IMG/VR virus record: IMGVR_UViG_3300045972_000055
Location: 1-37,175 of that record
DNA from: a virus
Strand: one strand, 5' to 3'
Length of the DNA stretch: 37,175 nucleotides
Made by a program: the position numbers and the translations under genes
Part shown: one piece after another, positions 10,833 through 37,175 of the stretch
How the letters are laid out: every line of letters begins with the position of its first letter
Numbering within the stretch: the stretch's first letter is position 1
The notes under the pieces: generated by a model
What the model saw: the letters and a program-made list of their open reading frames with translations, nothing else
What the model was told of the DNA's origin: nothing
The model's database searches: none

Positions 10833-12195
10833 CTTTTTTATTGAGGGGGTGCGAGCGGATTTGGTTGCGACAGAAGGGCAGATTATAATATTTTGGGCGA
10901 TTGTATTTCGTGTGCATAACCGTATTCATATTGAAACGTGTACGCAGTACGGGAAATCGCTTTTTATTGCGTTGGGGTGCATTATTGTATCTTGTATTGA
11001 TGAGAAAGTTGTGTGTGTGCTTGCTCCATCAGGAGAAAAAGCAAAGATTATAATGCGATATTATTTCGAACATCTTGGAGATAATAAATTGTTTGAGGAT
11101 TTGTTGGATGCAAATACTAAACTGGAACGGTTGAGGCAAGAGGAAAGTAAGGACAGGATAATGTTGCGAAATCGTGGAGGAATGTTTTGTTTATCATTAA
11201 ATCAAAGGAATTTTGGGAAGAGTGTTGAAAGTGCGATGGGTGCGGGAAGTGAGATTGTGATTGGCGATGAGTTCGGGTTGGTGTCGGATGATACGGAAGC
11301 GACTGTGTATCGTATGATTGCGGGAAAAGGAAAAGAGGCGTGTTATATTAAAGTTGGAAATACATTTTATTCTGAACAACCATATTCACATTTTTACGAA
11401 AGTTCGAATAACCCGAAGTATTTAAAAATTCATATTGATTATAAACAGGCGTTGGCGGAAGGGAGATATACGGAAGAATTTGTTGAAGAGGCGAGAAAGA
11501 AACCTATGTTTGATGAATTGTATGCGTGTATATTTCCGAAAACTGGTGGCGAAGATAAAGAAGGGTATAAGCGATTATTTCCCGATGCGTTGCTTGATAA
11601 GGCATTTATTAAGGAAATACCCGAAGAGAAATTGGGAGTGAGGCGATTGGGAACGGATGTGGGAGAGGGAAATGATGGAAGCGTTCACACGATACGATAT
11701 GATAATGTGATGTTCAGGAAAAACAAAAACGGAATAAAAGATATAATGCAACAAGTTCCGATAATCGAAAAGTGTGAAGCGGATGAAGTTTACGTTGACC
11801 ATACGGGGGTTGGTTCGGGGGTAACGTACCGATGCCTTGAATTGGGAATGAACGTGAGAGGTATAATGTGGGGTAGTAGTTCGGGGGGTGAGCTTGCTTT
11901 GGACACGGGAACGAAAAAGAAAAGTACCAGAATAATGCGTTTTGCTAACCTTAAAGCGGAAAACTATTGGAAGTTTATGACTTGGATATTGGAGGGGGGG
12001 CGAATAGTCGAAGATAAAGATGGAGATTTTAGACATCAGTTGCGACAAATTAAATATAAGATTAATTCGGGGGGGCGTGTACAAATTGAACCAAAGGAGC
12101 GAATGAAGGCGAGAGGTCACGGGTCACCCGATACGGCGGATAGCGGTGCGCTTACTTTCAATAAAATCATTAAACCTAAAATGTCGTTTTTATGA
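10771..12195 (+). CDS. terL: Terminase large subunit (ATPase-nuclease)
   Basis: 474 residues. The ATPase half has a deviant Walker A TCTQYGKS (56-63) and Walker B EIVIGDEF (161-168, D166-E167). The C-terminal RNase H-fold nuclease has Asp296 (RLGTDVGEG), Asp343 (VYVDHTGVGSG) and Asp454/457 (GSPDTADSGALTF). This motor pumps DNA into the prohead and cuts it. Which packaging strategy it uses cannot be decided here; the circular assembly fits headful or cohesive-end phages. It is followed by a zinc-ribbon gene overlapping by 4 bp. Confidence 0.95.
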   Translation: MLEKRKMTAEEKRVCLYLLSNFFIEGVRADLVATEGQIIIFWAIVFRVHNRIHIETCTQYGKSLFIALGCIIVSCIDEKVVCVLAPSGEKAKIIMRYYFEHLGDNKLFEDLLDANTKLERLRQEESKDRIMLRNRGGMFCLSLNQRNFGKSVESAMGAGSEIVIGDEFGLVSDDTEATVYRMIAGKGKEACYIKVGNTFYSEQPYSHFYESSNNPKYLKIHIDYKQALAEGRYTEEFVEEARKKPMFDELYACIFPKTGGEDKEGYKRLFPDALLDKAFIKEIPEEKLGVRRLGTDVGEGNDGSVHTIRYDNVMFRKNKNGIKDIMQQVPIIEKCEADEVYVDHTGVGSGVTYRCLELGMNVRGIMWGSSSGGELALDTGTKKKSTRIMRFANLKAENYWKFMTWILEGGRIVEDKDGDFRHQLRQIKYKINSGGRVQIEPKERMKARGHGSPDTADSGALTFNKIIKPKMSFL

Positions 12196-12380
12196 AACAT
12201 ATTGGATATTGCCCGCATTGCGGAGCGAAATTGGTTGAGGCGAGTGTTTTGGGGATGTATGATGATTTTACGATTGTTTGTTTTGGTTGTAAGCGTAAAG
12301 TTCCGATTTATTTATTGAAGTGGAAAAATGTTGGTGAGATATCCACAGTTATCAACAAGTTATCCACAGTTATCGAATGA
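12192..12380 (+). CDS. Zinc-ribbon protein whose 3-prime end encodes the DnaA-box array
   Basis: 62 residues. Cys7/Cys10 and Cys30/Cys33 form a zinc ribbon (YCPHCG ... CFGCKR). The tail ISTVINKLSTVIE is an imperfect duplication produced by the tandem DnaA-box-like DNA repeats at 12339-12378, so this part of the protein seems shaped by the DNA signal. Overlaps terL by 4 bp. Function unknown. Confidence 0.75.
   Translation: MKHIGYCPHCGAKLVEASVLGMYDDFTIVCFGCKRKVPIYLLKWKNVGEISTVINKLSTVIE
12339..12378 (+). other. Four helically phased DnaA-box-like repeats (candidate origin)
   Basis: Same-strand repeats start at 12339 (ATATCCACA), 12349 (TTATCAACA), 12360 (TTATCCACA, perfect consensus) and 12370 (TTATCGAAT). 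Start-to-start distances are 10, 11 and 10 bp, about one helical turn each, so all sites face the same side of DNA. An AT-rich stretch follows directly (12381-12475). Confidence 0.6.
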
Positions 12381-12499
12381 GTAAGAAATATTGCTATATA
12401 AATATTTTGGGTTTTCACTTATCATTGAATTTTGTAAGTTTCTTTTTTCCGTTTATTGAAAGAAAAAAATGTGGGTGGTGCAAACGATGGCATAGATAA
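12377..12499 (+). CDS. Possible 40-residue membrane protein with CxxC tail
   Basis: It starts with ATGA overlap on the zinc-ribbon gene, the coupling used throughout this genome, and ends at TAA 12497-12499. One hydrophobic segment (about 8-27, rich in Phe and Leu) is followed by a basic tail with CGWCKRWHR, giving a CxxC motif. A real small membrane protein is plausible. It could equally be a chance frame through the AT-rich part of a candidate origin. Confidence 0.4.
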   Translation: MSKKYCYINILGFHLSLNFVSFFFPFIERKKCGWCKRWHR

Positions 12500-12518: not shown

Positions 12519-12547
12519 TTGACAAATACGAATTTCCGTGCTAGACT
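12519..12547 (+). promoter_or_regulatory. Sigma-70-like promoter of the short RNA / late leader
   Basis: -35 TTGACA (12519-12524, perfect consensus), 17-bp spacer, -10 TAGACT (12542-12547). Start expected at G12554. No other promoter was found between here and the head genes, so read-through from this site may also feed the late operon. Confidence 0.7.
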
Positions 12548-12553
12548 GGATTT

Positions 12554-12669
12554 GCGATGAAGTAATGCCATCTTTAAATCAGCGAAACCCCACGGGGTTC
12601 AATGATAAGGGCGTTTTGCCCACGACAGCGATAATCTCACGAGGTTATTGATGTTGTGGGCATTTTTTT
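12554..12669 (+). ncRNA. Candidate structured non-coding RNA or terminator-controlled leader
   Basis: Expected transcript of about 116 nt bounded by promoter 12519 and the terminator ending at 12669, without an ORF. Predicted elements are a GATG/CATC hairpin (12556-12559/12569-12572), an AACCC-CACG-loop-GGGTT hairpin (near 12586-12599), and GGGC/GCCC (12609-12612/12618-12621), which uses the same GCCC as the terminator left arm. The last two structures exclude each other, a layout seen in attenuators and riboswitch expression platforms. I cannot match it to a known RNA family. It may be an independent small RNA, or an attenuator for the portal operon. Confidence 0.55.
12618..12669 (+). terminator. 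Strong intrinsic terminator before the portal gene
   Basis: 12618-12627 pairs with 12652-12661 (10 bp, one G-U), and 12629-12636 with 12643-12650 (8 bp, two G-U), around a 6-nt loop, followed by seven Ts (12663-12669). Confidence 0.85.
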
Positions 12670-12692: not shown

Positions 12693-14021
12693 ATGAACAT
12701 ATTTACTAAAATATTCAACGGCGCAAAGGAGAAAGGATTGGGGTTTGTGCCTAGCGTATCGGGATTGATTGGAAGGTTTCAAGGGTTGGGATTAAAAAAC
12801 GAAAAAGACATTGATAAATATAAAGGTTGGGTGATGCGTTGCGTTCAGATGAAAGCGGATGAAGTGGCGAGTACTCAATTACGTTTATACAAAAAAGATG
12901 CGAACGGAAAGAAAACGGAAGTTACTGAACACGCATTATTGGATTTGATTTATCACCCGAACAGCGAAATATCGTACATTGAAATGATGGAGGGTATCGC
13001 TGCGTTTTGCGATTTGAATGGCGATATGTTTTGGTATAAAGCGAAAAGCGGAAATACCACGAAAGAATTATGGCCATTAAGACCCGATTGGATGAAAGTT
13101 GTGCCATCAAAAACCCCCGACAGATTGATTGAGGGTTATATTTATTTTAAAGATGGATTGAGCGACCAACCAGTGCCAATGGAAGTCGAAGAGGTGATTA
13201 TGTTTAGGAATTTCAACCCGAAATTTTATGATAAACAATTACCATATCGTGGAGTTTCAACGGTGAGCGCAACGAGGATAATGTTGGATGAGGATGAAGT
13301 GTTGCGTGAATGGAATAAAAATTTTATCAAGAATGGTGCTGCGTTTGATGGTGTGTTGGAATATGATGGTGTTTTGAGTGAAGAGGAAACAGCGAGATTT
13401 AAAATGGCGTGGAAGAACTCACAGAGCGGTAAGGAGCAAGCGGGAAATATCCCGTTCTTGCAAGGAGGAATGAGATGGAAACCAAACGGACTATCACAGC
13501 GTGATATGGCGTACATTGAACAAAAGAAAATGAACCGTGATGATGTGTTTGGATTGTTTGGAGTTCCGAAAGGATTGATTGCGAGTGATGATGTGAACCT
13601 TGCTAATGCGAAGATGGCGTTATGGGTGTTCACACGTTTCACGGTGCGACCAATGTTGAAAAGAATTGAGAGCGTTTTGAATAATGCGTTGGCGGTTGAA
13701 TATAAAGGATTATTTTTTGAGTTCGATAATCCAGTACCAGCAGATAGGGCGCAGGAAATCACAGAGTTCACGGCATCTTGCAATAAATGGATGACAGTGA
13801 ATGAAATTCGTGAGATTGAAGGGTTGAAACCCTTGGAAGGATTTGATGAGATTAAAGCACCTGTACAGATTGGAGCACCTGCAAGTGAAGCGGATAATGC
13901 GGATGATGAAAATGCGGATAATCAAGATGATGCGAAAGATACGAAAGATGAGAAAAAGGGATGTGGTCACAACCACGGTAAAAAAAAAACTCAAATGTCG
14001 AATTATCCGAACGGGAGATAA
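12693..14021 (+). CDS. Portal protein (HK97 type), zero-frame product
   Basis: 442 residues with the HK97-family portal pattern: WVMRCVQMKADEVASTQLRLYKK near the start, LLDLIYHPN, LNGDMFWYK, the MFRNFNP segment, then DVFGLFGVPKGLIASDD and an aspartate-rich tail. It forms the dodecameric ring through which DNA enters. Start 12693 (gatATG) lies 24 nt after the terminator T-run; a longer frame from 12648 would start inside the terminator stem. Near the end, ten As (13980-13989) create a likely -1 frameshift site that would fuse it to the MuF protein. Without the shift the protein ends ten codons later. Confidence 0.93.
   Translation: MNIFTKIFNGAKEKGLGFVPSVSGLIGRFQGLGLKNEKDIDKYKGWVMRCVQMKADEVASTQLRLYKKDANGKKTEVTEHALLDLIYHPNSEISYIEMMEGIAAFCDLNGDMFWYKAKSGNTTKELWPLRPDWMKVVPSKTPDRLIEGYIYFKDGLSDQPVPMEVEEVIMFRNFNPKFYDKQLPYRGVSTVSATRIMLDEDEVLREWNKNFIKNGAAFDGVLEYDGVLSEEETARFKMAWKNSQSGKEQAGNIPFLQGGMRWKPNGLSQRDMAYIEQKKMNRDDVFGLFGVPKGLIASDDVNLANAKMALWVFTRFTVRPMLKRIESVLNNALAVEYKGLFFEFDNPVPADRAQEITEFTASCNKWMTVNEIREIEGLKPLEGFDEIKAPVQIGAPASEADNADDENADNQDDAKDTKDEKKGCGHNHGKKKTQMSNYPNGR
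13980..13989 (+). promoter_or_regulatory. Candidate -1 frameshift site joining portal and MuF frames
   Basis: Ten consecutive As. In the portal frame they read AAA AAA AAA ACT, giving the slippery heptamer A-AAA-AAA at 13982-13988. After a -1 slip the frame continues AAC TCA AAT without a stop through the MuF gene to 14773. The predicted fusion is 693 residues (432 + 261). Confidence 0.6.

Positions 14022-28110: not shown

Positions 28111-28118
<8 letters not shown>
28002..28118 (+). CDS. Possible 38-residue cationic amphipathic peptide
   Basis: Starts at ATG 28002 in the typical aaatATG context, just after the 27933-27990 hairpin, and overlaps the collagen-like fibre gene by 8 bp. Thirteen Lys/Arg, one acidic residue, and alternating basic/hydrophobic residues (KLKIRIFKIKLKSRK). 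Amphipathic cationic phage peptides that disturb the outer membrane are known as disruptins (for example in phage phiKT). The similarity here is only in character, not sequence. A chance frame in AT-rich DNA is the alternative. Confidence 0.45.
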
Positions 28119-29298
<1,180 letters not shown>

Positions 29299-32600: not shown

Positions 32601-32630
32601 TTATATCCAATAGGATATAAACGAATATTA

Positions 32631-32656
32631 AAAACGGGATTAAAACCCCGTTTTTT
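32631..32656 (+). terminator. Intrinsic terminator of the late operon
   Basis: AAAACGGG (32631-32638) pairs with CCCGTTTT (32647-32654) around an 8-nt loop and ends in TTTTTT (32651-32656). It follows the holin stop by 30 nt and closes the lysis genes. Confidence 0.88.
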
Positions 32657-32740
32657 GTTGTGGATAAACTAATCAAACGAAACGAAAAGGAACGATTAAG
32701 GGCGTGGTTAAGGGATAAAATGATTATAAATAATTGATAC

Positions 32741-32769
32741 TTGACTATTCGTTTGATTTGATATACAAT
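32741..32769 (+). promoter_or_regulatory. Early promoter 1 with shared spacer motif
   Basis: -35 TTGACT (32741-32746), 17-bp spacer ATTCGTTTGATTTGATA, -10 TACAAT (32764-32769). The spacer motif CGTTTGATT recurs at the same position in the promoters at 33745 and 35661. Confidence 0.82.
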
Positions 32770-33744: not shown

Positions 33745-33773
33745 TTGACGTTTCGTTTGATTAGGTGTACAAT
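33745..33773 (+). promoter_or_regulatory. Early promoter 2 with shared spacer motif
   Basis: -35 TTGACG (33745-33750), 17-bp spacer TTTCGTTTGATTAGGTG, -10 TACAAT (33768-33773). A TTTGG/CCAAA hairpin (33793-33797/33813-33817) lies in the leader just before ATG 33821. Confidence 0.8.
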
Positions 33774-35660: not shown

Positions 35661-35689
35661 TTGTTAAAACGTTTGATTTGATATAAAAT
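35661..35689 (+). promoter_or_regulatory. Early promoter 3 with shared spacer motif
   Basis: -35 TTGTTA (35661-35666, weaker), 17-bp spacer AAACGTTTGATTTGATA, -10 TAAAAT (35684-35689). It drives the HTH-like gene and the ERF recombination genes. Confidence 0.75.
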
Positions 35690-36909: not shown

Positions 36910-37107
36910 ATGATGTTTAAGGAAACAAGGTCAAGCATTGAATTGAGTGCATTGACGGTCGGAACTAATTTTGTTAAGTTGTTTGTTAATTTATTATTTG
37001 TGCCACTCTTAATCCTGATGGCGTTTGTAATCGACATCGTGAGAATGTGTGGACTTGAACAAAATGGAAACGAAAAGAAAAACGTTGACGTTGGCGAAGG
37101 TCGATGA
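36910..37107 (+). CDS. Small membrane protein between ERF and the first gene
   Basis: 65 residues from ATG 36910 (aaatATG). One long hydrophobic segment (TNFVKLFVNLLFVPLLILMAFVIDIV, in two parts) and a polar tail. Its last about 44 bases overlap the start of the gene at position 16 in another frame after circular closure. Function unknown. Confidence 0.65.
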   Translation: MMFKETRSSIELSALTVGTNFVKLFVNLLFVPLLILMAFVIDIVRMCGLEQNGNEKKNVDVGEGR

Positions 37108-37175
37108 AGTAAAAAAGCAAATTCAAGAACAGGCGAAAATGTATCTTAACTCGCCTGAAAGAGTTGTTGAGGCGT
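37049..37175. repeat. Terminal direct repeat, right copy
   Basis: Identical to 1-127. Removing one copy gives a circular genome of 37,048 bp. The gene starting at 16 is continued here up to its codon 37, so it should be counted once. Confidence 0.95.

Follow-up and report, generated by a model that had tools for sequence, protein, structure and literature searches.

In phage lambda, the Q gene stands directly before the late promoter. In the late operon of lambda, transcription stops by default within the leader, and antitermination opens the way (PMC4825925); in Gifsy-1 an antiterminator gene, antQ, immediately precedes isrK, a short terminated RNA that can also be read through (PMC4825925). 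The alp locus provides a further parallel of a leader opened by antitermination (PMC7969949). In Xp10, the phage protein P7 makes the host polymerase bypass the intrinsic terminators preceding late genes (PMC6624301).

The locus described here lies in a virus record of 37,175 bases (the window, that is, the whole stretch of DNA that was analysed). Positions 1-127 and 37049-37175 of the record are an identical 127-base direct repeat, and such identical ends suggest a circularised assembly. The features between the large terminase and portal genes are as follows.

Ending at 12195: large terminase gene, upstream of the Zn-ribbon ORF
12192-12380, + strand: Zn-ribbon ORF of 62 aa (CPHCG...CFGC), the final ORF of at least 60 aa ahead of the promoter
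12519-12547, + strand: promoter TTGACA-17-TAGACT, with TG directly ahead of the -10 element; found at the same position in relatives
12554-12669, + strand: leader RNA of about 116 nt, its start site inferred from the promoter
12586-12599, + strand: YACG-loop hairpin with stem AACCC/GGGTT and loop CACG
12609-12621, + strand: small hairpin with stem GGGC/GCCC and loop GTTTT, of which 12618-12621 are common to the 5' arm of the terminator
12617-12669, + strand: intrinsic terminator, stem 12617-12662 (-27.3 kcal/mol) and T7 at 12663-12669
12693-14021, + strand: portal protein gene, the first gene of the late unit, with its ATG 23 nt past the T-tract

The promoter had been annotated initially as a consensus one, and a search of both strands shows it to be the sole zero-mismatch TTGACA-N17-TANNNT site. 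As a class, promoter-like sites in the window are not above shuffles (31 found vs 43 expected), so the real support for this promoter comes from relatives. The terminator, previously described as strong and carrying seven Ts, is indeed more stable than any other terminator-like site found on the two strands of the 37 kb; its apical loop, which had been missed, is also CACG. The fold of 12550-12669 is more stable than that of shuffled sequences (z = -4.3), and both of the small hairpins annotated within it are present (12586-12599 and 12609-12621). The leader was also said to span about 116 nt without an ORF; its length is indeed 116 nt, but it contains a 28-codon ATG frame at 12565-12651, which is probably due to chance. 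Leader-peptide attenuation was considered on account of this frame and rejected, because no matching frame was seen in relatives. A tracrRNA or anti-CRISPR RNA, considered from appearance, was also dropped. The window showed no nucleotide similarity to known phages, and no viral contig searched contained its exact leader pattern. A 40-aa ORF, MSKKYCYINILGFHLSLNFVSFFFPFIERKKCGWCKRWHR, occupies 12377-12499, overlapping the stop codon of the Zn-ribbon ORF and stopping just ahead of the promoter. Two TTATCCACAGTTATC-like repeats at 12342-12378, within the end of the Zn-ribbon ORF, fit the DnaA-box consensus.

We propose, with a probability of roughly 0.7, that this RNA is the 5' leader of the late (virion) operon, that its terminator is a gate opened by antitermination, and that the Zn-ribbon protein encoded upstream is a candidate for the factor. 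A host-type RNA polymerase would start from the promoter at 12519-12547 and make the leader of about 116 nt; by default, it would stop at the terminator ahead of the portal gene and a short RNA would be released, and the late genes would be expressed once polymerase can pass this point. The promoter, the terminator, their position and recurrence, the repeated hairpin motif and a partial conservation of pairing are features read from the sequences; that read-through is conditional, when it occurs and which factor brings it about we infer. In its late promoter, its short terminated leader, its terminator before late genes and the short RNA expected by default, the locus resembles the lambda Q/PR'/6S/tR' system, and here too a candidate regulator gene is directly upstream of the promoter. 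The differences are that the gate here is located between terminase and portal, that the upstream ORF is a 62-aa Zn-ribbon with no Q homologue recognised, and that lambda Q binds a DNA element in the promoter region, where a sigma-dependent pause also occurs; the repeated signal here is in RNA hairpins. Gifsy-1 antQ/isrK differs in that its downstream gene is an antirepressor, and no sequence relation to the window is shown.

Wider searches for relatives yielded 115 portal clusters with less than 80% identity between clusters. A promoter, counted when at least 10 of 12 consensus positions match, precedes the portal gene in 38 of the 115 clusters on the sense strand and in 6 of 115 on the antisense strand (p = 6e-8). 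Strong terminators are found there in 23 clusters in the sense and 8 in the antisense direction; nearly all of the sense ones (21/23) are accompanied by a promoter, for which the threshold was at least 9/12. TATAAT, TTGACA and T6 are likewise enriched ahead of the portal. By the strict criterion, 92 of the 115 clusters have no strong terminator, so the gate is not universal; the antisense strand, used as a control, also yields 8. In leaders measured individually, between 0 and 41 nt (median 6) separate the end of the T-tract from the portal start codon. A further promoter does not fit into this space, so that transcription of the portal gene must cross the terminator. Leader lengths range from 40 to 280 nt across relatives and the overall fold is not conserved. 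Thus, of the two readings offered in the initial annotation, a switch for late genes is favoured, because many diverged phages have the arrangement immediately ahead of the portal, and an independent packaging or regulatory small RNA is disfavoured, because leader length and fold vary while the position beside the portal is kept.

Relatives in genome bins include some from Daviesbacteria and other Patescibacteria, and others from bins that may be misassigned. Among 380 sampled genomes from the phylum of the Daviesbacteria MAG there were three matches including the starting genome, and no close relative was added. In three phage-collection records with distant portals, terminase and portal are contiguous or such a leader is absent. 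Two relatives have terminase ORFs of 788 aa (L043, 6016-8382) and 793 aa (L051, 5002-7383) vs the usual length of about 470 aa, and may contain an insertion, for example an intein.

Two relatives, L003 and L004, whose terminases are 54-55% and portals 46% identical to those of the window, show the same layout at the corresponding position: a promoter, then a structured leader (212-218 nt) and a terminator. Aligned directly with these two leaders, that of the window has no real sequence similarity. Between L003 and L004 there are zero substitutions over roughly the last 119 leader alignment columns, and 60-nt windows of their flanking genes are mostly 72-97% identical.

The leaders share a local element. 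YACG-loop hairpins occur twice in the window leader, twice in L003, and three times each in L042 and L071, compared with 0.02-0.06 expected from the respective shuffles, 0.06 being the figure for the window leader. Since the YACG loop was picked after inspecting the leaders, the total of 10 (about 0.2 expected) was corrected for all 256 tetraloops, and it survives this correction. The loop, (U/C)ACG, is invariant across the four lineages while stems differ. A covariance search in related phages had been suggested initially. In the L071 group the pairing of the first YACG hairpin is partly conserved (of 12 pairs, 6 vary, 0 are broken and 1 is changed on both sides), and with the four sequences of this group the sliding control is clearly lower but the column-shuffle control is not exceeded (133/500).

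The repetition of hairpins in the leader suggests that the signal is carried by RNA, and those with a YACG loop would be the most likely recognition sites of an antitermination factor. Hairpins of the leader RNA as the likely signal are a likeness to lambda N/nut (boxB) and HK022 put, although both of these act on early operons; furthermore, boxB has a GNRA-like pentaloop, whereas the window hairpins have CACG tetraloops, and neither a boxA (by eye) nor an N-like protein was identified here. P7 of Xp10 differs in that it plugs the RNA exit channel, and the available part of its description contains no RNA hairpin code (PMC6624301).

Repeated hairpins whose loop is invariant while their stems vary, as well as the near-perfect conservation between the L003 and L004 leaders, ask for more than a terminator. 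This is the difficulty for the main rival explanation, a passive attenuator or insulator, in which a fixed read-through fraction sets the level of late genes and no dedicated factor is involved. We consider it unlikely, even though it needs no extra component, agrees with the widely varying strength of terminators among relatives (about -7 to -34 kcal/mol) and accords with the fact that no antiterminator was recognised among the window proteins scanned. An independent small RNA acting in trans from its own promoter and terminator, a role compatible with that of a gate, seems to us quite improbable: the unit is self-contained and stably folded, and terminated leaders can serve as small RNAs, as Gifsy-1 IsrK does (PMC4825925), but in many diverged phages the position relative to the portal start codon is fixed where length and fold are not, and the window and L003 have no sequence conservation at 55% terminase identity.

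A further proposal was that the GGGC/GCCC hairpin and the terminator exclude each other. The shared bases are real, but the overlap is not beyond chance (p = 0.07 and 0.36), and the hairpin has a stability of -5.8 vs -27.3 for the terminator. Hairpins overlapping the 5' arm of the terminator are also found in several relatives (L038, L093, L097 and L144), a likeness to BglG/LicT; here, in contrast, the overlap is not significant across leaders, no PRD-type protein was found and the RNA sequence is unrelated. In 20 leaders, the median p for a hairpin competing with the terminator is 0.34, vs 0.51 for 355 control terminators, which is not above background, and consequently we do not claim this specific switch as shown. 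The recurring YACG-loop hairpins give a stronger signal. The same overlap, together with the leader and terminator architecture, might suit a ligand-sensing riboswitch ahead of the late operon. That is very improbable, as relatives have no conserved global fold or pocket, the overlapping hairpin is not above shuffles, and no Rfam family, whether riboswitch, pRNA or small RNA, was matched above its gathering score. The earlier statement that no family with this sequence is known holds at permissive thresholds too, where nothing credible appeared. Least probable of all is a DNA-packaging RNA resembling phi29 pRNA, which belongs to a different packaging motor: its position between terminase and portal would fit, but leaders of 40-280 nt with unlike folds, a terminator abutting the portal gene and the lack of an Rfam match do not.

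If the late leader is a gate opened by antitermination, the best candidate for the factor would be the Zn-ribbon protein encoded just upstream. Across phages the small gene at this place is of two types, Zn-ribbon (also in L003, L004, L071, L118 and L208) or DUF2292/YezD-like. For one member, the DUF2292 name comes from a Pfam match below threshold; for the others, it comes from resemblance. In a Pfam scan of the 62-aa Zn-ribbon ORF no match reached the cut-off; a weak hit to Mu Com (PF10122, E = 0.18) is not claimed. No known antiterminator family was recognised among the window proteins scanned, nor was the Q family found in PHROGs and Pfam scans of the proteins tested.

The leader motif goes with the type of the upstream small ORF. 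A second clade (L118, L211, L219, L208) carries ACUACGNGAG, which was found 10 times in a partly redundant sequence set of 2.2 Mb. Behind a DUF2292/YezD-like ORF, 5 of 15 leaders have an AAGAA-loop hairpin, which recalls the boxB pentaloop, and none has the YACG or ACUACGNGAG motif. Only three changes are needed on the portal tree for the two labels, and the association thus represents few independent events. L077, with both ORF types, is not a clean fit, and neither is L036, labelled as DUF, in which a second, zinc-finger-like ORF comes after the DUF-like one.

Tentatively, these associations may reflect a new RNA-protein antitermination system of uncultured phages, in which small Zn-ribbon proteins would recognise repeated elements of the late leader, either YACG-loop ones or ACUACGNGAG, and take polymerase past the terminator, with a parallel pairing of DUF2292/YezD-like proteins and AAGAA-loop hairpins in relatives. 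We found no described system of this kind in open-access papers. If the proposal is right, a broad group of phages seen only in metagenomes, some relatives of which sit in Patescibacteria genome bins, would activate the genes for its virion by letting transcription continue past a terminator. The antitermination factor and its RNA sites may then be adjacent, two small phage protein families without a function would gain one, and the locus would offer a compact terminator switch suited to reporter testing.

Elsewhere in the window, a symmetric GC hairpin with A and T runs on its flanks is found at 32630-32655, past the lysis region, and likely marks the end of the late unit. Three promoter-like sites (32741-32769, 33745-33773 and 35661-35689) have CGTTTGATT in common between -35 and -10, and an inverted copy is located at 32669-32689; CGTTTGATT may be an operator shared within the early region. 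Positions 28111-29298 are a collagen-like Gly-X-Y coding region with a 48-nt repeat family of 15 copies.
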